Positions 22,801 to 57,956 of a stretch of 64,000 nucleotides of DNA are shown in pieces. Each line of letters opens with the position of its first letter. Within the stretch, counting starts at the first letter, position 1. The stretch is from Brachionus manjavacas. Its lineage: Eukaryota; Rotifera; Eurotatoria; Ploima; Brachionidae. Made by a program: the position numbers and the translations under genes. The DNA lies in contig JAHQIY010000004.1 in the NCBI GenBank assembly GCA_019054805.1, forward strand, positions 5,208,001 through 5,272,000. The letters run 5' to 3'. A model generated the notes under the pieces. That model was given only the letters and a program-made list of their open reading frames with translations, was not told the origin of the DNA and ran no database searches.

Positions 22801-24282
22801 CTTGCAATTAAAATTGTATTTTAAATAGATGAAAAATATAAAAGTTATAACAAAAAACTCATAGAAAAGTATTAATTTTAAGAAGATACAAGTTTTTTTC
22901 AAATAAGTAACTAAAGCTATTAAGAATTAAGCTCTTAAACTAAATCAACAATTATGGATTATCGGATCTGTTTTTTGACCAAATATTCTGGATGTTTAAT
23001 TCAATGTTAATTAAGATAAATATGATTTTAAAAGCCATAAAGGCTTTAAAATCATTTAAAATTTATTTGTAATTATTTTATCTTTCCCTCGTCAAAACTT
23101 ATAGTTTTAATAATTTAATTCTTTCAAATTAATTTGATGCTCACAATAAAGAAATAAATTTTTATTTATTAAATAAATTTTTGTTATTCAAGAAAATAAT
23201 TGCAGTTATATATTTTTGCATTTAACACACTTTTTTAAATCTTAAGGTAAACTCTACAAAGTGAATACCATCTAATACAATTTTAAGTGAGTTATTTTTT
23301 GCAGACTTATGAAGAGTTTCTCTTTAGATTTAACATAGAATGTTAAATCCAAAAATATTCAACTGCAATTATTTTTTTTAATAATCAAAAATTTATTTCA
23401 ACATTGCAAGCATCAAAAATTGATTATTAACTTCAAAATGCCATGAAAAGTCTTGTTTAGTTTTAAGAGTTTCTATGAGCTTTTTTTTTTACTTTTTGTA
23501 ATGTTGTAATGCTGATCTGAATCTCACTTATTATATTGATGAGTCATATTTTAAATAAATTATAAATGTCGAAATGTTGAAATCTAATTTTGAAAAATTT
23601 ATTTTATTATTCAAATTTTAAGCATAATAAATAAACGATTGACACAGATCTCAATGAAGAAATACACTTGAAAATATTTGGTACTGTTAACTGAAATGAA
23701 ACCTATCTTTTATTTATTTATGCTTTTGTCTATAGCTTACGTGATAAAGAAGAAAGAGAAATGACAAAGAATCAGTGGCGCAGCCAGACATGGAATACAG
23801 ATATGGCGAACCCATTTGAGACGAGGGGCTAGTTAAGGTAGTATTTCTTTTTTGATAAAGAAAAACTTTTTTCAATTTAAAGTATGAATTTATTTAAAAA
23901 TAAAAGTATTGCATCAATTTTTAATTAATAATTGTATTTTTTAATATAAAGCGAACAAAAAAATATTATGCTATTTAAAATGATTTATCCAAAATTAGTT
24001 CTTCGTTCAAGTGAAGAAAATATTTCAACTATGACTTCAAGATCAATATTTTCAACTTTACCTAACTTTTCTTTGCTCTTTCAATTGTACTTTCAATTTA
24101 ACTAGGTAGTTCTATTCTTCTTTTTCGCTCAATTCTTTGGTTTAATTTTCCAAAATCAACAGCATTTAAAACTGATAGCACTATAAATGTGTGTTCTGAC
24201 CTTTCAACAGAACACAAATTCTTCAACGGCGCCAAGGTAAGAAAAATCGTTTAGAGTAGTTTTATTTCTCAGAAGATCCTAA
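22801..24282. other. Intergenic with possible hAT remnant
   Basis: AT-rich. At 23773 the sequence CAGTGGCGCAGCCAG looks like a hAT terminus; no matching opposite end was found. A degenerate minus-strand frame at about 24000-24235 (with LCSVERSE) may be transposase debris but is too weak to call. Confidence 0.35.
23773..23787 (+). mobile_element. Solo hAT-like terminus
   Basis: CAGTGGCGCAGCCAG, followed by less AT-rich sequence to about 23830. CAGTGGCG-type ends are typical of hAT transposons; the partner end is not visible, so this is a remnant at best. Confidence 0.3.
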
Positions 24283-28833: not shown

Positions 28834-30072
28834 TTAACATTCTCTAGGATCTAAAATGTAGATTTTTCGCGGTCGCTCAGTCAACACAAAAATGTAATCG
28901 AGTTGATTTGTCACGACACTAATCGGCCTGCCATCTACCGAGTACCGGTTAACTAGGTCTATTTTTTCTCCGTTGTTGAACAAAAATTGTTTAATTTCAT
29001 TGCTACAACTATCAGCTGTGTAAATATTGGACGTGGTTCTTGACTGAGCAGCAACATGAACGTCCTCTAGGCAATCCATATTGGTGTAGAAATGGCACAC
29101 ATTTACTCGATTCCTCTCGCCGAAGAGACTGTACTTTTTGTGGCTTGTTATCGTGTTGGACAGAGACGGATTAAAGAGAGCCAGTCCGTCAGATCCGTCC
29201 ATGAATACCCGCACGTTCTGGTTCAATGACAATCTCCGATGGTTGGACACAATTACACCATTCAGATAGATAATTCTCACTAGTCGCAAATAATTGTCAT
29301 ATATTCTGACTTGGTTCTTGGGGTTTTCGCTTACATAAATGTGATCATCATAGCAAGCGATTGTAGACGGTCGAAAATCAAAGTCCCTATTAGATGAAAC
29401 TTCTCTAAACAGTATCTGTGATTTGTTTCGGCGACTGGAGTATCTACTTATAAATGAATGGTTCAGTTCGTATTTGGCTATCTTGTTTTGATCTGGAAAA
29501 ACAATGAATATATGCTTGTTTCTATCAGCGCATGCATCCGCAGGCACCTCGCTACGGAAGTACTTTGTTCGTATGTGGTTCAGAGATTTGTGGTAAAGAT
29601 TGAAATTGAATAGCTTTAATGTGCTGTCTGACTTGCTTATTAGACCAATGGTAAATGGATCGACTAGAAACAAACGATCAGCAGTTAAACCATAGTTATT
29701 GTGGAAGCCAAAACTTCCGACAGTGCACGACTTTTTTTCAACACTGAACAGGGATCTCGAAAATCTGTTGAGCTCGTCCTTTTCATCTATTTTGGCCGAA
29801 TAAGGACACATTTTTACCGCATTCTCGAATAGGTTTTTATTTTTTTTCTTCAAATCAGCAACTCTTCGTTCGGCAAATTCAAAAAAAGACTCATGTGTGT
29901 TGCCAAATATTGAAGTGTCAACTGTTGATGTTTCAGTCATCTGATGGTCATTGTTTGACAGTTGAATTTGGCCGATACTTGGACTATGCTTGCTCATGAA
30001 ATCGAAAAAAGATGAACCAGTGCTGTATTTTTGCAATACAATTAGTGTTATAAGGACTAAATTAAACTTCAT
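28834..30072 (-). CDS. Secreted NHL-like beta-propeller protein, intronless
   Basis: Single open frame of 412 residues from the ATG at 30072. That start is preferred because it opens directly into a signal peptide (Lys-Phe, then LVLITLIVLQ, cleavage near TGSS), whereas frame upstream of it has no ATG. Residues ~20-105 are polar with a basic stretch (RRVADLKKKNKNL). From about 110 onward there are repeated strand-turn patterns of NHL/six-bladed propeller type: STIACYDDHIYVSE...QVRIYD (234-259), then a block with SNIYTADSCSNEIKQF and a final RPISVVTNQLDYIFVL...KIYILD. Ten or so cysteines agree with extracellular location. I do not recognise a specific orthologue; NHL-domain proteins act as protein-binding scaffolds. 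GC content is higher than its flanks, as for the other real genes. Confidence 0.8.
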   Translation of the reverse strand: MKFNLVLITLIVLQKYSTGSSFFDFMSKHSPSIGQIQLSNNDHQMTETSTVDTSIFGNTHESFFEFAERRVADLKKKNKNLFENAVKMCPYSAKIDEKDELNRFSRSLFSVEKKSCTVGSFGFHNNYGLTADRLFLVDPFTIGLISKSDSTLKLFNFNLYHKSLNHIRTKYFRSEVPADACADRNKHIFIVFPDQNKIAKYELNHSFISRYSSRRNKSQILFREVSSNRDFDFRPSTIACYDDHIYVSENPKNQVRIYDNYLRLVRIIYLNGVIVSNHRRLSLNQNVRVFMDGSDGLALFNPSLSNTITSHKKYSLFGERNRVNVCHFYTNMDCLEDVHVAAQSRTTSNIYTADSCSNEIKQFLFNNGEKIDLVNRYSVDGRPISVVTNQLDYIFVLTERPRKIYILDPREC

Positions 30073-33000
30073 AGTTTTAATTTTCAAAAAATAAAACAAA
30101 AGACCAAAAAATGGCGAAAGTGGACTTTTCTAAAAAAAAACGATAAATTAGTTCATATGGCAAAAAGGCGGACGTTTGGACATCCAAAATTAAATATTTT
30201 TTTGAGGTTAATTTACTAAAATTGTAGAGCCAAATTAGTCTACAATACGCCAAAAGTATATATATTTATTTTTTTAAATTGCATCTTAAATTTATTTAGA
30301 TAAAAGAATTGTAGCAAAATTTTTCTTGTAAAATAATTGAATTTTTTAAACTTTTACTCTCTTTAAACCAGACGAATTTTGAGAGCGTCTTTAAAAATTA
30401 GAAAATAAAAGTGTTATTTGAGTTTTTGTTTCATCTAAAAACCTAAATACAGACTGATGATTCAATTTTTTTTCGTTAAATATAAGAAATAATATATCGG
30501 CCAAAATAAGAAAAAAATTAAAGACGAAATTTTAATATTTAGAGACAAGCAATGGTGCCGCATAAATTCAATGGCGAAATAAAAGTAAAACCAGTTTGGT
30601 ATCATTTTTCATTTAAAAAATTTTGAATAACTAGAAATTTAATATAAAATTTAATTTTCTATAAATAATAACTAATTTTAGATAACTCAATGGTTTTTAA
30701 GTTAATTTACTTTTATCTGTATTAAAACTATTTTTAGCTTCTAAAATCATAACCGAAAAAATAATTTAATTTTTTGATCTAAAAAAAATTGATATAAAAA
30801 TTTAGTTGAAATAATTTTTTTTTTTAGCTTGTTTATATTAAATATAGGAAAAAATTACTAAGCCCTCAACCTACGAATTGTTTTCCGATTCATAAAGCTT
30901 CTTAATCTATTTTATAAGGTTTATCAATATTGAAATTTCTAAAGATTTATTAATATTGTCAGTAGTCAAAGAGAAAATAAAAAAACTTGGGCGAATTTTT
31001 GACAGATTTTGGTTTCATGTTAGCTGGCGTTTCATAAATTCATGATTAACAGTCAATTGTTAAAAAGGCAATGCAATTCAAATGTATTTAGTCCTTAGCA
31101 TAAATTTCAGCAGTTTTTACTCCGAAATTTGATTTTAAAATTGATGTAAAAATCTAAATTCTTAGTCATCAATTCAATTCATATCTAGAAGAAATTAAAA
31201 TTGAATCATGAAATATCTGAAAAATTTGCTAGAAACGAAATTTACTAAATTTTTAAAATACAGACTTTAAAATTTGGAATTTTGCTCCTCAAAAAATTCT
31301 AGAAAACTTCCTTTTTGAAGAATTTTCGGACTTATTCAAAGTTTACTATTTTAAATTAAATCAGTAAAATATAATGAAAATGGTACAAAAAAAAAGCTAA
31401 ATTGTCAAGTTTTATAGACTGACGAGATCTTGTCACACAAAAAAACTCATGATGCATGGCTAGCTTTTGATCAAACGAAATCACCCATAATAAAACTATC
31501 GTGTACATATTAAAATTAGCAAAAGGACTTAAAGACATACAAATTAATTAGTGTTGCATAAAATTTTAGTTTTTTTTTAAATACGTAATATTTAAGACTT
31601 TTTAAGTCTAGACTAGGAATCATGCAATTTTCTCCTAGTCGGCTCATTTTGTTCTATTATGTTCAGGAAAGTTATGCTTTATTAAAGACAAATTTTCAAA
31701 AATTTAGAACCATTAAGATCCACATGGTCCTTGTTACCAATGAGTGATTAAATTTAAAATTCAAATCTCATAAGAAATTCTACAAGAAATTGCATTCAAT
31801 CCTACTTAAGTTAGTTAATTAAAAGCATAATTTAAAATTTTATTTTAATTCAAAATTTAAAATTATCTTCTTAATTTGCCAAACTGAAATCGTATCCATT
31901 ACGTCTATAATAAAAGTCTAGACATAGTTTGTAGGAAAATTTCTTTTACTCTGCTTACAAAAAATATTCAAATACTAAAATAGAATTTGTTTTATTTTTT
32001 TTCGAGAAATTTTTTGCCCTATGAAAATGTTTAAAAATAGTTTTTAATTAAATTCATATTGCTAGTTTGTTATCCTTATCTCGTAAGACCAAAGAGCCAA
32101 AATATGATCCCCTAAGCCAGAACCGTTTATTCAATAACACATATAACATATAGATAACAGATAGCATATTTTAGCTAGATTAGTTAGCCAAATCCCTACT
32201 TAAGAAAATTTAACTAAAAATTTTATTTTATTTGATCAAATTCGAATCCCTTCAGTGTCTCAAAATTTAAAGTTTTTTCTAAGTAATTAGTTTTAAAAAA
32301 TAACACGCAAAATGATATAAAATGATATAAAAAATGATACAAAGTTTAAATTTAGAAAGTATGATAGTGCAATTTAATATAGAAAGCGGAGAAAGAGCAT
32401 TTTTACCTAGGAACCTAAATTTAAAAAAAAGCATCAATTTCATGAATTTTTCTGTACTAAAAATAAGATTCAATTATTTAAAATCTAAGTGTATTCTTGG
32501 GGGTAAATATTATTTAATGAAAACAATGTAAGGGCATAAACATTAAACTTACAATTTCAAATATTTGTGAATTTAGTTCCTTTTTTTAAAGCCCAATGAT
32601 GCTTTTTAAACCTTTAAATTGTCGCTTGTGGTTTATTATTCGATTACCTAAGATTATGTAATTAGATTTATTCCGTTATTTTTCTAGAATATAAACCTTT
32701 AAATTTGATCTTGAATAGAGCCTTCATAAACCTAATTTTATTGTCTTTTAAAATTTTGCTTGGTAATTCTTGACAAAAAAAATCGTTTAAATCTAACTAG
32801 AATAAAATAATATTTTTATTTTTCAATACTATTTTCTACGAGTGTTTTTTCGAAGTGAGGTGGTCAAAATTTGCAAGAATTTAGTGTGTCATAAATATTT
32901 CTGAAATTAATATTTTATGTTTTTTATAAAAATGATTCAATAATATTGATAAATATTTGTTTTGATATTCAGATCTATTGAAGAACGGTTTGATAAAAAT

Positions 33001-37300: not shown

Positions 37301-39346
37301 TTTAACTTCTTTTTGCTATCATGAGGATACAAATAAATTGAAATAAAATAAACAATATGAATAAATTAATTGAAAAAAGAGTGTCAAGTGATAAAATTAA
37401 ACTTCTTTTACTTAATTAATATAATATTTAACATTTTTTTGACAGCTTCTAAATCGATTTTTGATAATCTTTTTCAAAATTTAAATTTTTTGGCCAAATT
37501 AAGTAAAATAAATTTTAAAATATGTTTTTTGAAGGAAATTTTTTTTATGGACGTGACCCGAAATAAACAGCAGAATTTAAAACTGTTTCAATCTTTTTGA
37601 ATTTTTAATTCGAAAATTTAATAAAATTTTTGTGTTTAACATTTTTCCATAAACTTTTAAGTAAAAAAAAGCCAAGTAAGAACAAGTTTCAGTTATAAAA
37701 AATGATTACTGATTTTAATTTATTTTATTCCTCCTTCGAGTTTTTTTTAAAAATTAGTCCAAACGAAACTTGTACCGTGCTCAAAGAACTAAATTTATTC
37801 AATTTGAACCACTAAATCAAACCTAATTTCCTAAATTTCAGGCAAAATAAAATGAAATAAATATTTTTATGTAAAATAAGAAATGACTGGTGTTTCAAAT
37901 TAGAAGAAAATGATCTCTAATACATAAATGATAAGAATAAGTGATTAGATTCTTTTCGATAATTCTCTTAATATTTATTCCCAAAATTACTACAAAAATA
38001 AAAGATTTTATTGATGATATTTGAATCTGTAAAAAAGATAATGCAAATTGAAGCTTTTGATCAAATTTAAATTTCAAGTCAAAACTTTTAGTTTTAAATT
38101 TAAAAAAAGGTATCTTATCAACTTTTCAATAAAAAATGACAAAACTTTTTTAAACATGATTTGTTTAACCTTCAATTTGGAAGAGAATTAAATGAATTTT
38201 TATCTTAAGTAAAATTAAAATCTAAATCAATATTTTGAAATTTTGCAATAAAAAATTTTTCTTTGTTTTTTTTTAAATTCTAAAAAATAGTTGATTCGTA
38301 AAAAATTTCAAAATATTGAATTGACAATAATAATAGAACTAAATACCTTTTGCACTTTTTTTTTTTAGAGTTTATTGAAAAATGTTAAACAGAAAAAAAA
38401 CTTGCCATATATTTTAATTAGTCTAGTGTAAACTTATGTCAAATGAATCTAATGTCTTAAATAAAATGTCATAGAAAATAATGCCTAAAATTTTTATTTT
38501 AAAAAGATAATAAAAGAAAATGATACTAATTAATTAATATTTTTAAATAAGAAATTAATGACAAAAGAAATCAATCTGATTCTAAAAAAAGTAATCTAAT
38601 TCTTAATTTACTAATGTCAAAAAATCTAAAATATAAAAGTAAGAAAATATTAGAAATTCTAGAGATAACTTCGAGTCTCGCCGTATTTGTTAAGAAAATC
38701 CAATGCCATTTGAACTTATACTCTTTCAGTAATTTTTTTGCGTAATTTACATATTGCAATATGTCGAAATACGTTTCCTTGATTCGTTTCAACTAGCTCT
38801 CCACTTACGTTTTATTTTATTTTTTATGTCCTCCGAGGTAATGGCAGTTGTGTGTTCTTTTGTTAATTTTTAATAAGTCTTTTCATCAGCTTTCTTTGCG
38901 TTTGACATTACATCTAAAATATCATGGCTCATCATAAAAAGTAAATAAGAAGTTTTTATTTTAAGATTTTTATTAATCAACAACTTTTAATTTAATCAAA
39001 GAAATCAATCAAAAAAAATTATCATTATTTTCCATTAGCAATACTTCTTTTATTTTCGACAATAAATTCTTAAATATTAAATTGACTTTACTTCTTTATT
39101 TAGGAAAAGGCAATAGATTCCTTATTTTATTTTTGGCATTATTTTTTTATTTAACGATTTGACATTAAATTGATAATAGTGAATCTTTTAATTTGTTAAT
39201 GCTTTTAAATCTCTAAATAAATATTATTTTTTTAATTTTTTGCTTGCTTTTTTATTTATTTATTTATTTAGAGAAGTTGACCAAACTAAAATTAATAAAC
39301 ATTAATAATGCTTTTAAATTTTTATTGTTTGATATCAAAAATTTTC
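37301..39346. other. Intergenic; contains left member of a 48-bp direct repeat
   Basis: AT-rich; no gene. The repeat at 38281-38328 recurs at 50531-50578. Just upstream (38231-38246) AATATTTTGAAATTTT is the inverted copy of a block in the repeat, giving a potential 16-bp-stem hairpin. A (TTTA)n run lies at about 39251-39270. Confidence 0.45.
38281..38328 (+). repeat. 48-bp direct repeat, left copy
   Basis: Matches 50531-50578 in the same orientation with only two mismatches (core AATAGTTGATTCGTA). The two copies lie outside the inverted repeats of the large element, 1.0 kb and 0.1 kb away respectively. Confidence 0.8.
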
Positions 39347-39753
39347 AAAGAACAATACACTGTTTCCATTGAAATTTTGCCCTTTTATATTTTATTTAAA
39401 AAAAGAGGGTTCAACTTAATTTTTATATCAAAATAAAGGTTTTTTACTCATCTTTCGGCAAAATTATCTAATTTTTTTAGATTTCCAAAAAAAATGTCAA
39501 TTTTGGCAAGATGAAAATCTACATTTTTCATAATAAACTTTACAATTTTACTTGCAAGCAGTCGTTGTTTCTTTTTTTTCTTGGTGAAAAAGAATAATTC
39601 TCTATTAAGGATTTATTTTGCTTAGAATTGAATTAAATAACAATTTAAAAATAATAAAAAATATCTTTTGATAAAAGTTATGTAATTTTTAAATAAAAAT
39701 TCAGATTAAAGATGCAGAAAACTTAATGAACCTTATTAAATACTTAAAATCTT
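39347..39753 (+). repeat. Long inverted repeat, left arm (407 bp)
   Basis: Begins AAAGAACAATACACTGTTTC and ends at TACTTAAAATCTT. The reverse complement of 50026-50429 matches it throughout with only scattered substitutions and small indels (for example around 39688-39696). Confidence 0.92.
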
Positions 39754-40802
39754 ATTTTATATTTATTTAATTTATTTTTAAAAAACAATGATTTATTTTA
39801 TTTGGGATGATATTCATGATTTGAAAAATTTTTTTATCTAAATGATTATTTCCCTTTAAAGGCTTTACCAAAATAAAAAGGTAAATAATTTAAAGTATTT
39901 TGGATTATCAATAATTTACTTATTTTTGATCATAAATTTTTTCATCAATTATCGACTACTTTTTAAAAAGAAATAAAAATGAAAAAAAATGAATTTAAAC
40001 CAGTAACGCAGAGGAAAGCAAAAGCAATTAAAAATTTAATATAATCTAAAATATTTAAACTTTTTGTTAAGTTTTATTTTGTTTCATTTGTCAATATTCA
40101 TTTTGAAATATTATTTTCAATTTATTTTTTCCATATTAATGATTTAAAATTAATAAAAAATTATAGCATACATCTCAAGAAAAATTTTTTTAATTGTTTA
40201 TTGAAACAAAATTTTCAAAAAATGATTAGTCATTTTAAAAAATGAATTTTTTGATTTTGAAATTTCAGTCAGTCTCTTTTTAACCTAGCTCAAAATTTTA
40301 ATGGCCTTATGAAATCTGTTTTAAAAGAAGTTTGAACCGATTTCTTTGTATTTTGATCTTCTTTTCTAATCTATTTTTTTACTCAAAAAGTTTCTTTAAG
40401 CTTTTCTTTACCATCCGGTTTCAACTTGTTTTTTTCATTAATATTTCTTTTATAAAGTGAGTTCGTTCAATGCGTTTTTGGAGAAATTTTGGTCAAGTAC
40501 AAAAATTGCAGCTAAAAAGTCTTCGATTTCAACGAATTTGACAGTTTCAAACTTTTTGAACAATTCTAAAAATTCAATAGATATCAGAATTGATATAAAT
40601 ATGATATCAATGACCAGATTTTTTATAGTTCTTTTGACTGTATTTTTAATTTGCTTATCTGTATCATTACTGAAAAAATTATTTTTCAAAAAAATGTAAT
40701 TTCTTTTTCTAAAAGCTGAGCAATTTTTTTATTTTTAAATTAAGAACCCAAATTCAGATTTGAACTTAAGTATTGGTCAAAATGGTGTCTCACGTTTTTC
40801 AG
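39754..40802. other. Subterminal region inside the large element
   Basis: Mostly AT-rich. The stretch 40442-40699 is open on both strands; the plus frame ends in a membrane-helix-like segment (FFIVLLTVFLICLSV) plus basic tail and could be an upstream exon of the gene at 40803, but it lacks an ATG at its start and the splice phase fits only if one base of the A7 run at 40688-40694 is an error. Confidence 0.35.
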
Positions 40803-41252
40803 CTGATAATCGGAATCAGATTTTGGTAATAAATTGTCTTGCATTTTCCTTTTAAATATTTTTAAAGGGCCAGGACCAAAATGTTCCTATAATTGATCGA
40901 CAGCCTTGTCTGTGCGCACAACCAAAATTTGCCAAAGCATTTTTGAGAGATCTTAACGAGGTTTTTTCAAAAATATCTTATAAAAGAATAAGCAAAATTT
41001 TTTTTAAGCTTCAATCTGCAATCGTTTCTGAAGAAGTGTATAATCAGACAAATGACGATAGCTTCGAAGTAATTTACAAAGATAAAAAAATGGCATTTTT
41101 TTACACAATTTCATTAAAAGGATGTTTGTATTTATGAAAACCAATATGAAAATTCTCAATTTTTAAGGGAACATTTTAAATTAGAAAAACTAAATGATAC
41201 TGATTCAACCAGAACAAGAGAATTAGTTTCTCATCCTGTTTCATGTTTCTGA
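40803..41252 (+). CDS. Unrecognised small gene in the large element (5' end unclear, one frameshift)
   Basis: Proposed exons 40803-40825 and 40868-41252 joined through a 42-nt GT-AG intron, reading DNRNQILGQDQNVPIIDRQ, then CLCAQPKFAKAFLRDLNE and FEVIYKDKKMAFFYTISLKG. Near 41115-41122 the frame must change by one base to continue into IYENQYENSQFLREHFKLEK and a Ser/Thr-rich end, stopping with TGA at 41250. Composition looks like real protein but I recognise no family. The start codon is not evident; a possible upstream exon with a membrane helix lies at 40442-40699. It is convergent with the transposase gene that ends at 41520. Confidence 0.4.
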
Positions 41253-41519
41253 TCCATTGTTTTTGTATTAATATTTCCTTCTAACTTGTTCTGGTTAATT
41301 GTCTTTGTTGCTTTTTGTATAATTTAATTGTAAAAAATTTGCTGCGATCCATTAAAATTTTGTAAATATATTAGTTGTAATTAATATTTAATTTTTTTAC
41401 TTATCAACATATATTTAAAAAATCAACATACGTCTAAAATTTTTTTGTTATAACGTTTAAATGTTAGTAAATAGAAAATGAATTAATAATTTGTTTATTC
41501 AAAAAAATTTTAAAAAAAA

Positions 41520-44500
41520 TTAAAAACTATTGATTAAATAATAAAATGAATAACTGATGGTTGCTTTTTGAAAATAAAAATGATCTCTCTTCTTTTTCAG
41601 ATTTTTTCCATATTTAGATAATTTTTTGACAGTTTTATATATGTCATCAACCACATAAAAATCATTTTTTAGCTTAAAAATTGAAACAGTATGGCCTGGT
41701 TTGTTTAAAGTTGCACAAAGAAAATTATAGTTTCTATTATCACATGTTATAACATCTGGTAATTCATGGATAAAAATGTTCTTCTCTGCTGATTTTATAA
41801 ACAAAAATGTAGGCTGATTAAAAAATTTAACGTTGAATTCAAAAGTCAACTTGCATGACTTGCATCTTTCTTCATTTTCAGCTGATAACTTAATTTTTGA
41901 ATTAGATTTTTTAAAAAGTATGACATCAGATTCTTTGGGAATATTTCTCTCATTTTTTTCACATCTTGAACAACTTTGTTGAATAAATACATACTTTTGA
42001 AATTCTTTTAAATTCTTTGAAAAATTATCTTCTTCATTATTATCAAGTGATATTTCAATAAAATTTTCAGAAAAATTTAATTTTGTATCATAGCTCATTA
42101 TTTGTTTAATCCATAATTCTTTAGCTTTATCGAAATTCTTTTTATCCACTTCATCTATAATGTCTTTTATAACTATAGTCAACTTGTTACTTATTATATT
42201 TTGAAAATAAGAAGAATTTTTTTTATAAAGATACCAGAATGCTAAAAGAATATAATCAATTGAGCAAGTTTTTGAAACAAAAACGTTTTTTTCCCCTTTG
42301 TATTCAATGAAAGCTCCCCACTTTGGTATGTGATTTTTGAATGATTCAATACTTGTTAAATCGTTTGATGATATTTCATGAGTTTGATTCAATTCCTTTT
42401 GAAGGATTTCAATTTCAATATCACTTGAATCTGAACAACTAGTAGTATATTCCGAATCACTTGAACTTTCTTTTCTACTTCTCTTTCCTTTAATATTTTT
42501 CGGTTTGTTAGGCAACTGTTGATTCTGTATATCGATAGGAATTTCGTTTAAATGTCTTCCTTTTGATATGATACCAGGTGTTCTATATTTTAAATAGCTT
42601 AAATAATAAATCACAGTTGCGACATGGCTACAGCATCCGACTATTCGACGACCTGACAAACATGTGCATATATGAGCTTAAATAAAAATTAAAATCAAAA
42701 GATTACCTAGTAAATAGTGTAAAATTTTGAATTTACCTTGAATTGACTTCGAATGATTTAATCCAGGTATATATTTGATAAAAACTTTGTATGTATTTTT
42801 AAACTGTTTAACATAGCTGGTTTGCCCAATATCTTTTAGATTTTTTTAGATCTTCTATGACGTGAAATTATTTCAAATGCAAGGATTTTTGAATTTTCAT
42901 ATTCATCAGTTAAAACCCTATTTGACATATTCTTCATCAATCTTGAGCTAACAATGTAAGCTGTTTTATTAAATAAAAGGTCATCAGCGTAGGCTCTAGC
43001 TTGCTTTAACTGATATGATCCAAGAAATAACTTTCTCATCATTTGTTTTGGTCTTAGAATTGGAAAATCAACAATACTTGAAATCGAAATAGATGCTATC
43101 AATTTTGTTTCCAAATGTTTTCCTATTAAAAACTCTAATTCATTCTTGGTTATTTTTGATTTTCTAATCATTCTTCGCGCAATTTTTTTCCATGATTTCC
43201 ATCAGGGGAACAACTAATATGGCTGAAATTAATCATTGCTGATGCTATTCGATAGTCAATTTGAATATGACCAATAGCTGTATTTCGAACATTTTCTAAA
43301 GCCCTAAATTTTTTAATTTCGCCGATTTTTTTTTCAACTATGAATCGACACTTAATTAATCAAATAAAATTTTAATAAAAAAAACATAATTTAATTTACC
43401 TTTGTTACCATTCGTGTTTCATTAGCCTGTTTGGTAGAAAGCTGTTTAGATTTTAAATTAGACTCATCCAAATCATTATTTAAAAACTGCTGACAAGTTG
43501 GAATTTTTACATCAAAATCGTATTTTTCTCTAAGTTGTAATACGACATCTCTAAATCCTTTTAAATAAATCTTTTATTTTTAACAATTCACATAATAAAA
43601 TTCTTTAGTGCAAATTATAAATTTTTACAAACCTCTATCGAGAAAGATAATTGTTTTTCCAGGAAGAAGAATCTTTTCTTTTAGAGCTAAGTCTGTCTTC
43701 AATATATATTCAAATATACAAGCATCGTTCATATTTGCAGAAAATGATCCATAACAGTCAATAATATATCCATCACTACAGCATATAATAAAAGGCTTAA
43801 GTAATGATGTTGATTTTTGAACACTCCAACTTTTATACTGGAAGTTATTATTCTGACTTTTTTCAATGCGAGTATAGGTACCATCACAAACAATAACAAG
43901 TTCTTCATTCTTAATTGATAGAAGTTCTGTTACCATTTCATTGTTGTGTTTCAAAAAAATTCTCTTTTTCTATCAGCTCCAAGAAAAAATGGAACAAAAT
44001 CATCGTTTATTGCCTTTCGTATTTGAGACAAGTATTTACTAATGGCTTGTTGAGAACATCCCTTTTAAAAATTTTAGCAAGTACTGATTGGTTTGTTCCT
44101 GTTCTTAACCAGTATCGATAAAGAGCAATCAGCTGTTCTTTCGAACGATTTTTACTATTTTTTATGCTAGTGATGAATTTAGAAAAGTCTAAAAATTGTT
44201 TTTTGTCCAACCTGTAATTTCAATACAATGTGAGTCTTGAACAGAAGAAATATCTTTAAATTTTTCAAACACACTTTTTTCACCGACTTCAAACATATCA
44301 AACATTTTTATTAATTGATTCTTATAATTTTTTTTTTGTACGAATTTGACCATAAAGTTCCTCTTTAATACAACCATTATTATCAAGATGGTTTCTGCAG
44401 CATCTTGCATTTTCATCAATAATTATTCTTTTCATTTTGAATGCATGAATAATTGAATTTTTATTAATTGTTCGCAGTTTAATCCTATCAGAACGCTTCC

Positions 44501-44561
44501 GTCTACAAATAAAACAGCAATTATGCGAATTTATAGCTGTTTCTATCTTTTTCGTGGACAT
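41520..44561 (-). CDS. DDE transposase fused to SWIM finger and C19 (USP)-like protease domain, frameshifted
   Basis: Four minus-strand exons: 44561-43633, 43557-43400, 43350-42737 and 42676-41520, all GT-AG. In order: zinc finger (C16-x2-C19, C54C55-x2-H58); HTH (LIALYRYWLRTG..., AISKYLSQIRKAI); DDE core of DDE_Tnp_4/Harbinger type with VCDGTYT (D1), ANMNDACIFE (D2), LDRG|FRDVV and RFIVEKKIGEIKKF (E); SWIM-type C-x-C...C-x-H spanning the last junction (CTCLSGRRIVGCCSH). Exon 4 then continues 385 codons uninterrupted: acidic Ser-rich linker, Cys box KTCSIDYILLAFWYL, two CxxC pairs (CSRC, CKSC) and His box GHTVSIFKLKNDFYVVDD, the layout of ubiquitin-specific proteases. Five or six single-base frame changes occur in exons 1 and 3, mostly in homopolymers (T10 at 44328-44337, A6 at 44199-44204, T7 near 43950), so either decay or sequencing error. 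Nuclear; presumed mobiliser of the surrounding element. Confidence 0.82.
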
Positions 44562-44881
44562 TTTAATTTATTTTTTTATCTAAAAAATGAAGATTGAGTT
44601 CTTAAAAATTTCATAAAAATAATATTTTGTGTTATTATCGATTAGAGTGATATAATAAATATAGTTTAAACTTTTATTTGAAAAAAATACAAAAAAAATT
44701 GAAAAATCTACTTTGATTTTTTGGTTTCATTAACTTTTTTTATCTGACATTTTACTCTTGATTCTTCTGTTAAAACTTTAATACAAATGTAAATTATGCA
44801 CAGTTTTGTATAAATAGATTTCACTGTAAGAAGACAAGCTCCGATAAACACTAGATCCTAAATAGATAACAAATTTTAAAT

Positions 44882-45466
44882 TCAAATCTTCAAATAAAAA
44901 AATACTTTTAATCCAACAAAATAAAAAATTCTGTTTTTTTCTTCATCGTATAATCCAAATGAGAACATAAGCCAACAAGCGAACTCATTATTTTTAAATA
45001 AGAGCCATTCAATTGTCTCTTCTACATTTTTTATGTCGCTAATTGCTATTGTTTCCCTAATTATAATTAGAACTTGTTCTTCATTTATTTTAAACCTAAC
45101 AAAAGAAATTAGAGTAAGAAAATTAAAATTTACTGCAATCAAAAATTACCTTTTAATTTTTTGACATGTTTCTGAATTTTTTTGATGGTAAAATAAAATG
45201 CCTCCATCCCGTGGATAAAAACCAATCTGAGAATCGCCAAAAATAATTGGTAGATATTTGTCGAAACAATTCAATGAATGATTTGGAGATATTGAAAATT
45301 CAATAATTTTTAGGCAACGAAGTTTATCATCACATGCCACAGCGTTGCTTACACCATGAAAAGTGTTTGGAGGAAAATGACTAGAAAATGTTTCAGTGTT
45401 TACATTTTTTTTATTAGAAATTATATGGGCAGATGATAAAGTTTTACTTTTTTGAAATTTAAACAA
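44882..45466 (-). CDS. Unrecognised two-exon gene in the large element, 5' incomplete
   Basis: Exons 45466-45150 and 45095-44882 on the minus strand, joined by a 54-nt GT-AG intron in phase (AG|G, Arg). The reading runs SHFPPNTFHGVSNAVACDDK, CLKIIEFSISPNHSLNCF, YLPIIFGDSQIGFYPRDGG, then after the intron FKINEEQVLIIIRETIAISD and VEETIEWLLFKNNEFACW. About 177 residues are visible. No ATG is found at the 5' side, so a further upstream exon must exist or the start is lost. No family recognised. It reads away from the minisatellite at 45600, and the homeodomain gene reads away from the other side, so the repeat array could contain a shared promoter; that is inference. Confidence 0.5.
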
Positions 45467-45599
45467 AATAAAAAAAGAAAAAAATATATAATTGCATCTC
45501 CTTTTAGATTTTGTTTGAAAAAAATTATTTTACTACAACTTTTTTATCGAAATAAAAAAATATTATATTTTTAAGAATATCTTTTTTGAATCAAGTTTC

Positions 45600-46352
45600 A
45601 GCGAAAATTCTTACTTTTTAACATAAAAAATCGATATTGACCTCAATAAAGATTTTTATACTAAAAAACTTATTTTAAGGCAGAAAACATATCTTTAAAA
45701 AAGATAAAAATTATAGTTTTTTCTTCCAAATTCTATTTTTTAACATAAAAAATCGATATTGACCTCAATAAAGATTTTTATACTTAAAAAACTTATTTTA
45801 AGGCAGAAAACATATCTTTAAAAAAGATAAAAATTATAGTTTTTTCTTCCAAATTCTATTTTTTTAACATAAAAAATCGATATTGACCTCAATAAAGATT
45901 TTTATACTAAAAAACTTATTTTAAGGCAGAAAACATATCTTTAAAAAAGATAAAAATTATAGTTTTTTCTTCCAAATTCTATTTTTTTAACATAAAAAAT
46001 CGATATTGACCTCAATAAAGATTTTTATACTAAAAAACTTATTTTAAGGCAGAAAACATATCTTTAGAAAAGATAAAAATTATAGTTTTTTCTTCCAAAT
46101 TCTATTTTTAACATAAAAAATCGATATTGACCTCAATAAAGATTTTTATACTAAAAAACTTATTTTAAGGCAGAAAACATATCTTTAAAAAAGATAAAAA
46201 TTATAGTTTTTTCTTCCAAATTCTATTTTTTTAACATAAAAAATCGATATTGACCTCAATAAAGATTTTTATACTAAAAAAAACTTATTTTAAGGCAGAA
46301 AACATATCTTTAGAAAAGATAAAAATTATGGTTTTTTCTTCCAAATTCTATA
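45600..46352 (+). repeat. Minisatellite, six copies of a ~123-bp unit
   Basis: The block ACATAAAAAATCGATATTGA starts at 45620, 45743, 45867, 45990, 46111 and 46234, spacing 121-124 bp. Copies are almost identical, differing mainly in T- and A-run length. Each unit contains ATCTTTAAAAAAGAT, a short perfect hairpin, and ends TTTTTTCTTCC. The array lies between two divergently read genes of the large element. Confidence 0.97.
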
Positions 46353-46453
46353 TCTTTTACCTTAAAAATTTTTTCTTGTCGTTAGTATTTTAATTTTAGA
46401 TTTTTTTTGATATAATTATTATTCCAATATTTTATTTTAATCTTTTTATCTTG

Positions 46454-47035
46454 ATGTTTAAGATTATTTTTAAAATGGCATTAATTCGTTATTCAAACAT
46501 TTTACTCACTTCACTTAGAGCTTCAGCTAACTTAAGCTGGAGATTTTCTACCAATGCTTTTAAAATGTTTTTTAATTCTTCGAAAGTCTCTTTTCGAAGT
46601 TTATCGAAAGTTTTCAATACATTTATCAATAAAAAACAGTCCAAGAAAAATGATAATCAGCCTATTAAGAAAAATTCAAAAAACGAATAAATTTTAAAAA
46701 TCGCAGGATTCTTTACGATGCACTCATATACCAAAAGATTTTCTCGAAATGAAAAGATTCAATTAGCTAAAAAAACAAATTTGTCGGTCCGTCAAATATC
46801 AAGATGGATTTCAAATTCAAGAAATAAAAAATTTAATTCGTCTAAACGCATATCATTAAACGAAGAAATAAAACTGAATGAATTTTTTGAAAATGTGTGT
46901 GCATATCCACAAAAAGAACAAATATCTGAATTGGCAGAGAATCTCGAGATCACAAGAAGACAAATCAGTCAATGGTTTTACAGAAAAAGAAGAAAAGAAT
47001 TAAAAAAAAAAATAAATCAATTTAATTTTATGTAA
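46454..47035 (+). CDS. Tandem-homeodomain DNA-binding protein in the large element (in-frame stop at 46688)
   Basis: One reading frame from the ATG at 46454 to the stop at 47033, broken only by a TAA at 46688-46690. Two homeodomain-like units: the first from about 46691 (GFFTMHSYTKRFSRNEKIQL, helix 3 VRQISRWISNSRNKK with the conserved W48, N51 and R53), the second from about 46850 (LNEFFENVCAYPQKEQISEL, helix 3 RRQISQWFYRKRRKE, where N51 is Arg). The N-terminal part (46454-46687) is Ser/Lys-rich and may or may not belong to the same protein; translation could alternatively start at the ATG at 46718, which would cut the first homeodomain short. By analogy, PIF/Harbinger transposons carry a separate Myb-like DNA-binding protein; a homeodomain protein could fill that role here. 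Confidence 0.65.
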
Positions 47036-48079
47036 ATTTTTTTTTAAATAAATTTTTACTTGCTAAATACAATAATTAACTTTTTAAACATAGTGTATAT
47101 TTTATTAGATTATTAATAGCGATAAAAAAATTTAGAGAAAAGGAAAAATATCATTTTTTTAGAATATCACTTTTATTTCAAAAAACAATGTTTAATTTTA
47201 AATTTCACTTGAATGATAAAATCTTAATTTTTGCATCTGAACTTGGTTTTTGATTCAGGAAAATAGATGGATAAATTCGAACGAATCATCATTTTATTGG
47301 AATTTTTTATAAGATATTTAATATTCACATTTATTTAACAAAAATATAAAATTACAAATAAACAAATAAATTATTTACCATTAATGGTATTGTGAATTTA
47401 AAAAACAGAAAATAGAATAAAAAAATTTTATTTAAGGCGATAAAGTGTAACATACTTTGTTGCAGTTTGTGGCCTTATTTTTTCTAATATTTTTTATTAA
47501 CTCTAATTTTGATTTATCAAAACATCATGAATTTTTTTCTATTTTTTTGAAATTCACAACACCCCAAAAAATCTAATCAAATGTCAAAAAGAGCCCAAAT
47601 CTGAGCTGAAGAATAAATAGGTTTTTTTAATGTTATATTTTTGTGACATGATTTGGATTCGAATTCTTAATAAAAAAATATTATCTCTTTTTACTCATTT
47701 ACATATGCAATGAATTATCAATAATCATTTGAATTTAATAACTTTAAAAAACTTAAAAACTTTCATAATTTTATTTAACCTGCAAATCTAAGACTTATTC
47801 ATTTTTTTATGCTGACTGTTTTAAGTCCTAATGCTCCTGCAAATTAATCACAATTTTACTTGTGGTACTCTACAAATAGCACCAATTGTCATTAAAAAAG
47901 CTGACCTCGTATCCTTGAGCCACTTATTGATTAGAAAAATTTAATAATTAATATTTAATTTTTTAATCGTTTTTTATAATTGTGGTTAAAAACTATTATA
48001 AACTTTAAAAGACTTTATTCTAATTCAATTGAAGTTTTTTTGTTTTGGTAGTTAAGTAGTCTCTAAAGGAAGCTGGGAT
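47036..48079. other. Non-coding part of the large element
   Basis: AT-rich; no exon that I can support. Confidence 0.45.
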
Positions 48080-49020
48080 AGGACCCTAAATTTTTTTGAA
48101 GATCATGATATTCTCATTAGATAAGGCAAGCTACATCCCACAGAGGGACAACGTAGTAGTGGTAGCCACAAAGCCTGCTAGCTCCTCAGGAAGGCTTCCT
48201 AAAACAGGAGGCAACAAGACAGCTACAGCTAAGTCTCGCACTCGCTCAAAAAGCAGGATGCGGTTTTAAGGAACTAGCAAAGCTCACACCGGGGATCGAT
48301 TTAGTCAACAATATCCTTTCACCCACCACTAATCACCCTAATTATTCATTAATTCATAAGTGGAAGTTCGGTCGCCCGGTAATTAGTAAATACTTCTGGG
48401 ACAAAGACACGAACATTATTAATTAATTATGGAATTAATTAGTAATGTTCCATAATTCCTTATGGAATCGTGGAGGTACATGGACAATCCAGAAAGCTCG
48501 GAAGACGAGCTTCAAGAGCAAAATGATAAGGAAAATGATCAAATAGGCGAGGGATCTCCAACAGCCTCCTCCACCTACTACCACCAGCTTCTTTGCAACC
48601 AGGTCGAAAGAATTTTCGCCCAGTTCGATGATTGTCAGATTCAGGCCAAGGGTCTCACAGCTCACAGCTCTATATCTAGGGAAAAAGTAAAGGTGGACGC
48701 CTACTTCGCTCTACCCACAGATATCTTTCCATTAGGAATTTCCAATCACTCACGCGCTCTTTGCCAATCTACAAAACGGTCTCATGATTCGGTCGGCAGC
48801 TGGTTGCGCTCGTATTAAGAGCTATTAGCACAAAATTAGTCCAGCGATAAGGATAAGGACTCGTGCTGGTCTCTCTTTAAAAGGCCAGAATAGTCGAATC
48901 ATCCCGATATTGCGGAACGATCAAATAGGAACGATATTGCGGAACTTTTTGCTGGTCTCGAGACCCAGGACGAAAGTAAGACCCATAGCGGACTTCTCTG
49001 CATTAACAAGGTCCATAAAA
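48080..49020 (+). pseudogene. LTR-retrotransposon fragment (gag-like region joined to start of RT)
   Basis: Clearly GC-richer than its surroundings. Plus-strand blocks in order: DNVVVVATKPASSSGRLPKT and a basic stretch (SRTRSKSRM) at 48130-48270; KELAKLTPGIDLVNNILSPT and KWKFGRPVISKYFW to 48426; then from 48462 an acidic N-terminus (DNPESSEDELQEQNDKENDQ) and VERIFAQFDDCQIQ; finally KVRPIADFSALT at 48980-49015, identical to the RT start in the fragment at 6071-6484. The tract looks like a gag-type coding region with frameshifts, deleted internally up to the beginning of RT. No LTRs, protease, RNase H or integrase. It interrupts the large element between two of its genes. Confidence 0.6.
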
Positions 49021-49080
49021 TAATATTTTTCTTATTTAAATTTTAAAAAAATTTTATTTTTTAAAGAAAAAACAATAATA

Positions 49081-49707
49081 TTACACTAATTTTTTTCTAG
49101 CATATAAACATATAAAAAAAATTAAAGTTAAAAAAATTATAACAAAGGTGATCACACAAATAACAATTTGAAAAAATCCAAAAATTCCAACATTTGTAAA
49201 TAATCCTTTAAAAAAAAATTTAAGTAGAGACCACCACAATGCCCTATACTAGAAGCTATATCAGAAAAAGTAACAAGGATTGCTCTTAGAAAAGAAGGAC
49301 TCTTTGAACAAAAGTCTGTGAAAAAAAAAACAAAAAAACTTAAATCTTTATACGGCAAGCACTTATTATATGCTATTTCTTGTTCAACATAGTTAACATA
49401 AACACCTTCCCCAATCAAAATTCCAAACAAACTAAAAATGACAACCATCAATGATATTAAGAATGTTTTAAGGGAAAAATATTTATTTTTAACAAGCTTG
49501 ACGTCCTCAATTCGAAGATTTTTTGCAAAAGTCCTCTGATTACTATTCCATACCAGCTCTAATTTTTCTTGATTTATACTCTTAATAAATCCTATTTGAA
49601 TTAATCCTTAAAAAAAATTTTAAACAATATTTAATTATAATGCATGATATTAATTTTATACCATTTGATCTTTTAAATGAAACTTTATCATTGATTTTTA
49701 AATTCAT
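49081..49707 (-). CDS. SH3-like barrel plus membrane-helix protein, two exons, one homopolymer frameshift
   Basis: Exon 1 49707-49662 from ATG, exon 2 49606-49081, joined in phase (G|GA, Gly) over a 55-nt GT-AG intron. The N-terminus (INDKVSFKRSNG, IQIGFIKSINQEKLELVWN, then NLRIEDVKLV) resembles the SH3-like barrel found at the N-terminus of kinesin-13 and in Tudor-type folds. It is followed by a helix (LISLMVVIFSLFGILIG), a Cys-containing loop with several hydrophobic stretches, and, after a one-base shift in the T9 run near 49210, a clear C-terminal membrane helix (FFQIVICVITFVIIFLTLIF) with basic tail ARKKLV. Without the shift the frame stops early at 49152. About 190 residues. Family not recognised. 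It is the last gene before the right inverted repeat of the large element. Confidence 0.6.
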
Positions 49708-50025
49708 TTTTTAGCTTCAGTTAAACTTTGTCTAAAATTTTTAAAATGAATTTATATATAAATTAATTTATGTGCAATTTTTAAAAAATATGCTATGTCC
49801 AATTTAATATGTAATGCTCTATTTTCAATTGGAAAAAAATTTGATTATTGAAAAATACGAAGAAGATGACTCAAAAATTATCCTCTTTTTTAAATAGATA
49901 TTTATGTAATCTTATTTAAAAACTTTTTTGTAACTAAAATTATTTTTTGTTAAATGAAATAAAAATTACAACTTAAATCTTTAGAAAAATAACTCTCAAA
50001 CGCTAAAATTTTCGTTGTATTCTTG

Positions 50026-50429
50026 AAGATTTTAAGTATTTAATAAGGTTCATTAAGTTTTCTGCATCTTTAATCTGAATTTTTATTTAATTATCTAACT
50101 TTTATCAAAAGATATTTTTTATTATTTTTAAATTGTTATTTAATTCAATTCTAAGCAAAATAAATCCTTAATAGAGAATTATTCTTTTTCACCAAGAAAA
50201 AAAGAAACAACGACTGCTTGCAAGTAAAATTGTAAAGTTTATTATGAAAAAATGTAGATTTTCATCTTGCCAAAATTGACATTTTTTTTGGAAATCTAAA
50301 AAAATTAGATAATTTTGCCGAAAGATGAGTAAAAAACCTTTATTTTGATATAAAAATTAAGTTGAACCCTCTTTTTTTAAATAAAATATAAAAGGGCAAA
50401 ATTTCAATGGAAACAGTGTATTGTTCTTT
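50026..50429 (-). repeat. Long inverted repeat, right arm (404 bp)
   Basis: Reverse complement of 39347-39753 with scattered differences; ends CACTGTTTC-type block inverted at 50429. See left arm. Confidence 0.92.
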
Positions 50430-50530
50430 AATAAATTTTTTAATTAAAAGTTAAATCTTGCTTACTTTTAGATATTTTATTCTAATCAAAAGGTCGATTT
50501 TTGTAAATAAATTTTATGGTTTAAAAATTT

Positions 50531-55213: not shown

Positions 55214-56995
55214 TTAAGCATCAGTTGAAGTTGTTGGATTTGAAAAAAGGTCTTGATTTAAAGGTCCGATTGAGTTTCTTTGAAATACTGGTAATGCTTT
55301 TTTACGACGACCTCTTGAGGCATTTTTTTCGATTCTTAAATCGATAGTTGGGAAAGTTAGCAACTCCAAATTGTACGCGATACCAATGACATGCTTACAA
55401 ACGAATTTCTTTTTCTAGAATTGACAAGAACATTTGCTCAACTGCCAACACTCTTTGTTGATTTCTACTATTTTATGTGAGTTACTCAATTTTATAAATT
55501 GATCGAAGGAATTCCAACTGTTCGTGTTAAAATAAAAACGACAAATTTCTTTCGTAGCTTCTACGTCACTTTTCTCAGGTGACACCATGCATGTCACTAC
55601 CTCTTCTTCTTGTTTTATTTTGACAATTCGCTTTTTTGACTAGCACCAATTAAAACCAAGTGTCCATTCATGAGTCGATATCTCTGGCATTGTTTTAAAC
55701 TTTGTCGTTGTTTGAAAACTTGGATTTCTTTCTTTCGACCACGTTTCGATCAATTGATCCATCACTCTAACAAAGTCTCTAAGCGGTAAACGGTCTCGTA
55801 AAGTTGCATTTTTTTTGATAGTGTTATTCATCGATTCTATCCCGTTGTTTGTACTAGGATAACCCTCAGCATTTCCTTCGAACCATCCGATCGTGTATTC
55901 AGACATCCATTGCTCCTCGAAATACTCAAAAAACGCTTGAATATTTGGGTTGTTAAGTTGAGTCCATTTTAATGACAAAAGTATAAAAGCTGCATTGAAA
56001 TTTTGCTCTGAAGCAGTTGATTGAATGAGTCTAAAATAATTAACAATTTTCTGTTTTACATCTTGACCAATTCCTTTGATGTTCTCTTCAATTTTTCTTT
56101 CGACGTGAGACCAACATACGATTCTCCTTTTAACGTTTCCAAAAACCTTAATAAAACCGTTTGTGATAGTTTTTGCTTCATCAGCTAATAGAATCTCAAT
56201 TTGTAAACAATGACCATAAAGCTTGTATGATAAATCTTTGATTGTTTGAAAGAGAAATGCATAATCTTCGCCAGTTTCGGTTTTTAAGAGAAGAAGTCCA
56301 AAAGGGTGAAAGTGCGTATCTTTATTTGTCGTTCCTGTAAACAAAACTGGAAAATTAATCCAATTTAACTTATATGTACCATCAGTCGAGATATGATCAC
56401 AAAATCTAACGAGGAATATTAACGATCAAAAAAATTTGAAACGATACATTATCAGTCTGCAAGTTGAAATTTGAAATGACAAACATTGTATCATCAGCTT
56501 CTGGAATTGATGATCTACTTTGAGCACAATTGATAAGAGCATCTATCGACTTTCCTGGATCGTTCGATTCGCCATTTCGCGTACGCTTATGCCGACTTAC
56601 AATATTGTTGATTGTTAAATCTTTGACTTCTACATAACCATCATTAAAATTATTTCTGAGCCACCTTCCAATGATACTTGAAGGCTATTTCGATGGACAA
56701 GAATGTACGCTCTTTTGTTACAACGTGAACATTTGAAGAAGCGCTTCTCTCCTTGATCAGTATTTTTGGTTTCTTTTGCACTCCAAGTAACGTTTTCGAC
56801 TGTCCCATCTTTGAGCTCTTTTACACACTCTTCTAATGATTCAAAACTTTTGAATGGATCATAAGGAAGATTTTCGCCTCTCTTTCTTTTTGGTGCTGGT
56901 TCTTCAATATCGTCTTCAGTATCGTTTCCATTGTTAGCTCTTATGCGAATAATAGATGTTGATGATGACTCTTCAGATTCAATAAATTCAGACAT
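55214..56995 (-). pseudogene. MULE (Mutator-like) transposase with in-frame TAGs and frameshifts
   Basis: Begins at the ATG at 56995 with an acidic leader, then a FLYWCH/WRKY-like zinc finger region (RFFKCSRCNKRAYILVHR). The MULE catalytic core is present: STDGTYKLNW (D1, ~56385), LLADEAKTITNGF (D2), CWSHVERKI, and NGIESMNNTIKK (E). After the core comes a SWIM finger (CSCQF...VCKHVIGIA) and a basic AT-hook-like end (RGRRKKALP), stopping at 55214. Defects: frameshift near 56650, a one-base shift in a T7 run near 56430, and TAG codons in frame at 55640 and 55415 (the latter between the two halves of the SWIM finger). No terminal inverted repeats found. Inactive as it stands. Confidence 0.85.
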
Positions 56996-57956
56996 TTTCA
57001 ATTTTGATTTGGATAAGCCAGTTATCTCCAAAATTTATAGATTTAGTAAAATTTGTCAACATTATAATCAATTTTTTTATCGAAAAAAAAATTAATGAGT
57101 AAAAACTTATCAATTTATTTTGATTCTCAAAAATTAATTCTGCTCCTGTTATCAATAAATAAAGCTGCTAAAATTGAATTAATTAGATAATATTCGACTT
57201 GCTTCTCTAAAATAAAATATTAGATATAAAGTGATATAAAATTGCTCCTTTGGAAAATGTAAGCCTTTTTTTTATACTTAAGTTGCAAATGTTATACTTA
57301 AATAAATAAATAAATTTATGCTTCTTTTAATTCCTTATTCTAAATAGTTTTTCTTTATTAAAAATTTTTTTTCTAAAATCTTATTTTATTAATATCTATT
57401 TTGTATAGTATCAATTTATTTTGTAATCACTTTTTATATTTTTTGTGTACATAATAAAAATTAGTAGATAATTTTTTTTAATGAAAGCTTTTGAAGAATT
57501 TTTTTTTGCCAGAATCAACGTTATTTTACTCAATTATTAATCAAAATTTGTTTAAAAATATGAACTTTTGAACTATCAATTAAATTTTTTTTTTCGTAAA
57601 TTTTCTGATACTCATTTCACAATTGACTTAAGATAAACTTTATAATTAACATTGTCTTTTTAATTATCTCAAATGAAAAATGAATAGGGTTTGTTTAAAA
57701 CTCCTATGGATCTTTGATGGTATTAAAAAAAATCGGACCTTCTAGTGTTAAGCTTGTTACCCTTCTAAAGACTGTTATTTTTTCATTGTATCTAATTATT
57801 TTTTTATTTTATCTAAATAATAAGCTATCTAAATATAGTGAATAATTATTTTGTCTTAGTATCTAAAATTTTTGATTGTTTATCAAAAATTTGTTTATCA
57901 AAAATTTTTTTTGTTGTATCTACTACAAAAAGGAAGAAAAATTAAGAAAAAAAAAA
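56996..57956. other. Intergenic; solo piggyBac-like terminus
   Basis: AT-rich; holds only the transposon end at 57735-57751. Confidence 0.45.
57735..57751 (+). mobile_element. Solo right end of a piggyBac-like element
   Basis: GGACCTTCTAGTGTTAA, i.e. inverted CACTAGAAGGTCC followed by TTAA, the terminus and target of the MITEs at 3296, 19036 and 24698. No left partner found within several kb. Confidence 0.4.

Follow-up and report, generated by a model that had tools for sequence, protein, structure and literature searches.

Positions 39350-50426 of a 64,000-nucleotide stretch of Brachionus manjavacas DNA (contig JAHQIY010000004.1; hereafter the window) hold a transposon-like element of 11,077 bp, the ends of which were set from the alignment of 15 copies. 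The window corresponds to C4:5208001-5272000 of the assembly that we searched (AT-rich, 114,169,980 bp in 61 contigs), and loci are named by contig and position in that assembly, for example C10 or C4:1.05M. Between its terminal repeats the element carries a DDE transposase gene, a tandem-homeodomain gene, two further genes termed B and D, a tentative gene 'E', a minisatellite and a block richer in guanine and cytosine (GC). Its inverted repeats (39321-39753 and 50026-50455) pair in four blocks with 95-100% complementarity, ~10.3 kb apart, and the two arms inside the element are identical at 398 of 405 columns (98%). A sequence-only reading of the window had described near-identical repeats of ~405 bp at this distance, which stand, and had given the unit as 39347-50429, which does not, as the host AAA and TTT were included. 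The DDE gene, tandem-homeodomain gene and minisatellite that it saw inside are all present (Pfam; tandem-repeat scan). Two of its three unrecognised genes (45146-45529 and 49152-49607) are conserved in divergent relatives, whereas the third (48456-48818) lies in the passenger-like GC-richer block.

The window copy is one of 15 complete copies in the assembly, the others being 14 further loci with a correctly oriented repeat pair. Complete copies measure 10,715-11,218 bp, a spread due in good part to the 123-bp minisatellite, which has 3.1 to 7.2 units depending on the copy. With gapped columns set aside, identity of the other 14 to the window copy is 99.77-99.95%. The left-repeat search scored 40 of 87 candidates, every one of which matched, and a transposase search 107 of 121, so counts from both are lower bounds. 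It had been considered that the 405-bp repeat might be a dispersed sequence found singly, or that no internal gene might accompany it elsewhere. Instead, matched pairs stand 10.7-11.2 kb apart in 15 copies and the internal genes co-occur at other loci; single ends and decayed pieces of the repeat are also present. At C26:510981-539181 two complete copies (C26a and C26b) lie 6 kb apart with the same immediate flanks, and they are a duplicated segment containing one insertion, not two insertions. Since these two share their flanks, and the other 13 copies differ in theirs, there are 14 independent insertion sites. Copies at C16:42452 and C7:6115647 retain a single end and part of the gene set, and the next copy begins before any opposite end is reached; they are called truncated. 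Two shorter pairs of family ends are found at C10:138797-145230 (6.4 kb) and C6:1569634-1575111 (5.5 kb). As the matches listed by the element-protein searches include none within them, they resemble non-autonomous derivatives that have lost internal sequence. A cluster of decayed relatives with repeats 92-95% identical is found at C24:687-776k.

In 15 of 15 copies AAA stands directly before GAACAATACACTG and TTT directly after CAGTGTATTGTTC. No direct target-site duplication was seen in these copies by eye or in the alignment of their ends; a short TGATA repeat at C26a/b was considered and taken as chance, as no such repeat is seen at the other sites. Three insertions fall within repeats for which uninterrupted paralogues were found: C2b in a long interspersed nuclear element (LINE) whose paralogue is window 26548-26975 (94% over 430 positions), and C16 and C23b in two different satellites, that at C16 being the ~337-bp one. 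All three paralogous empty sites have a single AAATTT with no base gained or lost at the junction, in alignments of one LINE copy, three C16 units and one C23b unit; the C2b and C23b alignments have one-base gaps, none of them closer than 6 bases to the junction. The AAA/TTT context was read for the window family and, for C10, as TTT at one end. Spy transposons are described as lying between 5'-AAA and TTT-3' without duplication (PMC4482050, PMC11304231). The target behaviour is that of Spy, within the PHIS superfamily, and not that of PIF/Harbinger, because there is no TWA duplication and AAA/TTT flanks are found instead. Window 24282-26996 contains LINE pieces with an RVT_1 domain, and its C2 paralogue, which hosts a copy, provides the clearest empty site. 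At C16:40-63k the ~337-bp satellite array surrounds one complete and one truncated copy.

Substitutions and indels were counted over ~9.9 kb of columns, leaving out minisatellite columns 6350-7350 and columns 8400-8760. Compared with the column majority, the 15 copies carry 73 substitutions and 389 indels in total, and 373 of these indels are changes of 1-2 nucleotides within homopolymers at least 4 long. The substitution load, about five per copy across ~10 kb, points to a recent burst of the element. Reading frames are broken at places that vary from copy to copy. As the indels sit in homopolymers and differ between copies, most of the breaks are probably artefactual, following the usual long-read error pattern in near-identical repeats.

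The transposase is encoded in several exons. One of these matches PF13359 (DDE_Tnp_4), above the curated cut-off in the window copy and below it in C10 (20.9 vs 24.8 bits), and a segment reading RFIVEKKIG in the exon downstream is taken by us as the third catalytic position. The last exon starts with CTC...CCSH, which follows the SWIM pattern CxCxnCxH, for which the Pfam match is below threshold (E=0.47). Taken as a whole this exon is 39% identical to the C10 family; beyond that, no credible match to it was found in Pfam or PDB. By eye, Cys/His boxes in the C-terminus resemble those of USP/OTU proteases, but no PDB or Pfam match supports such an identity, which is not claimed. The transposase may be one long polypeptide, as is supported by a distant relative at C1:124532-126622 in which a single intact frame of 1073 residues spans both the DDE and the C-terminal matches. 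In the window, C10 and C13 families the DDE match is 4.06-4.35 kb from its own element end (coordinate subtraction). No homeodomain, B or D match lies near the C1 relative, which is thus a candidate one-gene relative.

The homeodomain gene, which is frame-broken here, forms a single frame of 208-212 residues in several other copies. Its C10 counterpart has 220 residues and two homeodomains, the first of which is KN/TALE-like, and its best solved relatives are PBX1 and Meis. Gene B has three exons in both the window and C10 families, exon 3 being in frame in both; it opens with a short hydrophobic segment (by eye), followed by a domain whose cysteines are shared between the families and a C-terminus made up of a hydrophobic stretch and a Lys-rich tail, and is 222 residues long in C10. 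By these features and the hydropathy of D, both B and D look like membrane-protein genes. B and the homeodomain gene diverge from a shared intergenic region, which holds the minisatellite in the window family and a different nest of inverted and direct repeats in C10, where Tandem Repeats Finder reported no array; the arrangement would suggest a regulatory or protein-binding region. The Pfam scan covered 15 open reading frames (ORFs) of 80 residues or more inside the element and 5 ORFs in L046, the C10 locus at C10:2285600-2294000. It gave no match for the 'E' ORFs, one of which (40856-41137) was found by protein search of the assembly only in the window family and decayed C24 relatives. The GC-richer block occurs at full length at 17 places, which are the 15 complete and 2 truncated copies, at 91% in one decayed C24 copy, and, over shorter stretches, at 67-78% in other places. 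One frame close to the end of the block reads KVRPIADFSALT, a sequence that is also seen in the reverse-transcriptase ORF at 6071-6484 (by eye). The block looks like passenger DNA, a piece of a retroelement, and was in the family before the burst.

Table 1. Features of the element and its immediate borders, in window coordinates.
Feature	Position	Strand	Basis or remark
Host target half-site AAA	39347..39349		Precedes element in 15/15 copies
Left terminal inverted repeat, 404 bp	39350..39753	+	Self-comparison and copy alignment
Tentative gene 'E': ORFs 40442-40699 (hydrophobic stretch) and 40856-41137	40442..41137	+	ORFs
Transposase gene: Cys-containing N-terminus, DDE, SWIM-like motif, unassigned C-terminal region; several exons, frame-broken here	41520..44561	-	ORFs, Pfam, relatives
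Last transposase exon: CxCx9CxH motif and C-terminal region, 385 aa in all	41520..42677	-	Sub-threshold SWIM; C10 likeness
Transposase exon with PF13359 match	43625..43969	-	Pfam E=5.7e-7
Gene B, three exons, likely start codon out of frame here	44708..45497	-	Splice reading; homologues
Minisatellite, 123 bp x 6.2	45605..46368		Between diverging B and homeodomain gene
Tandem-homeodomain gene	46454..47035	+	PF00046 E=6.4e-14, two stretches; frame break near 46690
GC-richer retroelement-like block	48030..49020		Family-wide; contains ORF 48456-48818
Gene D exon, 151 aa, one strong hydrophobic stretch	49152..49607	-	ORF, hydropathy, homologues at C50, C4:1.05M, C4:35k, C4:1.07M
Right terminal inverted repeat, 401 bp	50026..50426	-	Self-comparison and copy alignment
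Host target half-site TTT	50427..50429		Follows element in 15/15 copies

Genes of this set recur together, with order and orientation kept, at six divergent loci: C10, C4:1.05M, C13, C4:35k, C50 and C33. C4:1.05M has D, the homeodomain gene (on the opposite strand), B and the transposase at 46, 47, 43 and 73% identity. At C10 the homeodomain gene, B and the transposase (32, 38 and 65%) were detected, at C13 B and the transposase (54 and 73%), and at C4:35k D, the homeodomain gene and B (37, 47 and 48%). C50 has the homeodomain gene and D (53 and 47%), and C33 the homeodomain gene and the transposase C-terminus (37 and 34%). For co-occurrence beyond the family (E<=0.001), the 15 copies, the truncated C16 and C7 copies and the decayed C24:687-776k cluster were excluded, and neighbouring exon matches of one transposase were counted once, by hand. 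Another element gene lay within 15 kb at 6 of 14 homeodomain loci, 4 of 8 B loci and 4 of 4 D loci, compared with maxima of 4, 3 and 2, respectively, in 20,000 random placements each, a simulation that assumes uniform placement when transposons cluster.

Related ends accompany some of these genes. The L046 element ends at position 8202, before TTTT, and of its last 34 bases 26 agree with the window end. A pattern derived from the window and C10 ends occurs at 93 places (up to 3 mismatches), vs 0 for a reversed control, and a relaxed form at 139 vs 11. Such ends, for the relaxed pattern taken from among the first matches listed, lie near element genes at C10, C11, C13, C4:34.6k and C4:1.07M, and three of the six divergent loci have a related end sequence within 5 kb. 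Those at C10:2277596 and C10:2293801 enclose the C10 genes in a 16.2-kb interval. Matched C10-type ends also stand 21.4 kb apart at C6:726237-747642, an interval for which the element-protein searches list no match, and which is either one very large element with a different gene content or the result of nesting. A second end type, GAACAATACTCTATTTGCATTGAAATTTGGACC, was found at 16 places exactly and 2 nearly, on C29, C2, C1, C3, C5, C12 and C31, and is probably another family of the same group.

Among known systems the closest is Spy, a rare type known from three phyla (arthropods, cnidarians and molluscs), in which published intact elements measure 1165-5910 bp and have one ORF and repeats of 5-691 bp (PMC11304231). 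This ORF is ~700 residues long in five tested elements, and the discussion of that paper states one or two ORFs (PMC11304231). Spy elements such as cgSpy of Colletes gigas share with ours the PHIS-type DDE domain and insertion at AAA/TTT without duplication, and our repeat arms (401-404 bp) fall within the Spy range. However, the present element is about twice the published maximum size at 10.7-11.2 kb, has four recurring genes, and encodes a longer transposase with a SWIM-like motif and an extra C-terminal region. Harbinger elements have a TWA duplication, repeats mostly under 60 bp, an average size of ~4.1 kb and a Myb/SANT partner (PMC4482050). PIF/Harbinger shares a related catalytic domain and a DNA-binding second gene with our element, in which there is no duplication, the candidate partner is a tandem homeodomain protein, and none of the 15 element ORFs has a Myb or SANT match in Pfam. 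ISL2EU, with an AT duplication, a second gene bearing a YqaJ domain and an average of ~4.8 kb (PMC4482050), is alike in having a related catalytic domain, but neither an AT duplication nor a Pfam YqaJ match in the element ORFs was found here. A cut-and-paste superfamily that has grown multigene is also represented by the enlarged CACTA elements of Chondrus crispus (16-20 kb, 4-5 ORFs), which differ in superfamily and host (PMC6431247).

Overall, we consider it very likely that the window holds one complete Spy-type cut-and-paste transposon, enlarged to ~11 kb, recently mobile and probably autonomous. Its mode of movement is well supported by the anatomy. It is a large, multigene variant, given that the intact Spy elements in the literature span 1.2-5.9 kb and have one ORF. 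Of the sequence-only reading this retains the large DNA transposon with a Harbinger-related catalytic domain and extra genes, and gives up the Harbinger lineage for lack of a TWA duplication. The suggestion of an undescribed transposon is likewise kept in part; the kind, Spy, is already described, whereas for the large multigene form we found no description. In the proposed mechanism, the transposase would bind the ends and excise the element, then join it into AAATTT without a filled-in staggered cut. The homeodomain protein may serve as an accessory DNA-binding factor on the ends or on the repeat region from which B and the homeodomain gene diverge, taking the part played by the Myb/SANT protein in PIF/Harbinger. 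B and D could be membrane or secreted proteins that aid the element via the host cell, which is the weakest step.

Several observations weigh against this reading or parts of it. The Spy assignment would rest on target site, repeats and DDE type. No copy was seen with every gene open, and the window copy is frame-broken in the transposase, the homeodomain gene and the start of B; that this is mostly assembly error is inferred from the homopolymer pattern, not proven, and genomic homopolymer slippage is an alternative. Neither B nor D has a Pfam match above threshold. All four genes occur together only at C4:1.05M, while D at C10, D and the homeodomain gene at C13, B and D at C33, and the transposase at C4:35k and C50 were undetected at E<=0.01, which does not imply absence. 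Homeodomain, B or D matches lie within 15 kb at only 5 of 53 non-family transposase-like loci, with 48 of 53 having none, and the gene kit accordingly belongs to one branch of the transposases in this genome. Of the B-like loci, three on C2 (9.03-9.10M) and one on C41 lack any further type of element gene within 15 kb, and the same is true of eight homeodomain loci. The latter are probably mostly ordinary host homeobox genes, an exception being C11:1501880, which is beside the C11 cluster just outside 15 kb of its transposase piece. On the supporting side, nonsynonymous and synonymous differences (pN/pS) were compared between the window and C10 families for the transposase exons, B and the homeodomain gene, with D outside the comparison. 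Ratios of 0.29 for the DDE exon, 0.49 and 0.56 for other transposase exons, 0.55 for B and 0.67 for the homeodomain gene (0.29 to 0.69 overall) are a crude, qualitative sign of constraint only, because synonymous divergence (dS) is near or past saturation, and the homeodomain gene gives the weakest sign. Variability is highest at third codon positions in every one of the transposase exons, in B exon 1 and in the homeodomain gene.

An alternative is a Spy element with one gene of its own, B, D and the homeodomain gene being passively captured fragments of no use to it. The GC-richer block does resemble a passenger, ORF 40856-41137 is family-specific, and the 48 transposase-like loci lacking these genes nearby include C1:124532. 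On the other hand, the same order and strand recur at 29-54% amino-acid identity, and pN is below pS for both B and the homeodomain gene, which is unexpected for old passengers; we regard this alternative as unlikely. A PIF/Harbinger transposon with acquired cargo would account for PF13359, a catalytic domain type common to the PHIS superfamily (PMC4482050), and for more than one gene, one of them DNA-binding. This is quite improbable given that the 3-bp TWA duplication is missing from all 15 copies, that the empty sites have one AAATTT, and that the DNA-binding partner is a homeodomain protein and not Myb/SANT.

The size, long inverted repeats, several genes and membrane-like proteins could also be those of an integrated virus or virophage-like element of the Polinton/Maverick type. 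Polintons/Mavericks have a protein-primed DNA polymerase, a retroviral-like integrase, capsid genes and a 6-bp duplication. No such marker was matched by Pfam among the 15 element ORFs and 5 L046 ORFs, whether capsid, polymerase or packaging, although shorter or spliced genes could escape; with no target-site duplication either, a viral origin is very doubtful. A segmental duplication or assembly artefact in place of a mobile element is what C26a and C26b, one duplicated insertion with shared flanks, might suggest, but the other 13 copies differ in immediate flanks and three sit inside LINE or satellite arrays of which uninterrupted copies were found, so that this explanation is scarcely credible. 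More speculatively, the element could represent a separate, old multigene Spy-type lineage in which a homeodomain regulator governs transposition or its targeting, and a pair of membrane or secreted proteins enables the element to manipulate host cells or to move from one to another, a step towards a virus-like lifestyle without capsid genes; we see only a slight chance of this.

Spy is notable for having no target-site duplication, and its published members are small with one, at most two, ORFs. A large Spy-type lineage with recurring genes and near-identical copies suggests that this chemistry can carry large natural cargo, and its gene set offers a natural test of the part that accessory genes play for a transposon. 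If a homeodomain protein stands in for Harbinger's Myb protein, the same problem would have been solved independently. Beside the inserts of 1.6 to 8.5 kb used in cgSpy cargo tests (PMC11304231), a natural 11-kb member is also of practical interest. No Spy or Harbinger element with homeodomain genes, SWIM motifs or large cargo was found in a literature search that had most subscription journals outside its coverage; the word homeodomain occurs 0 times in the two Spy papers, and the word Harbinger 0 times in the giant-transposon review (PMC6431247). Priority is not proven, because this coverage is partial.

Outside the element, the window contains genes for rhodopsin-type receptors (PF00001), a sign of an animal genome, and a separate DNA transposon at 55640-57034, which has a MULE transposase domain (PF10551) and an upstream ORF. 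An ORF of 431 residues at 28834-30129 with a hydrophobic start and no Pfam match is probably a host gene.

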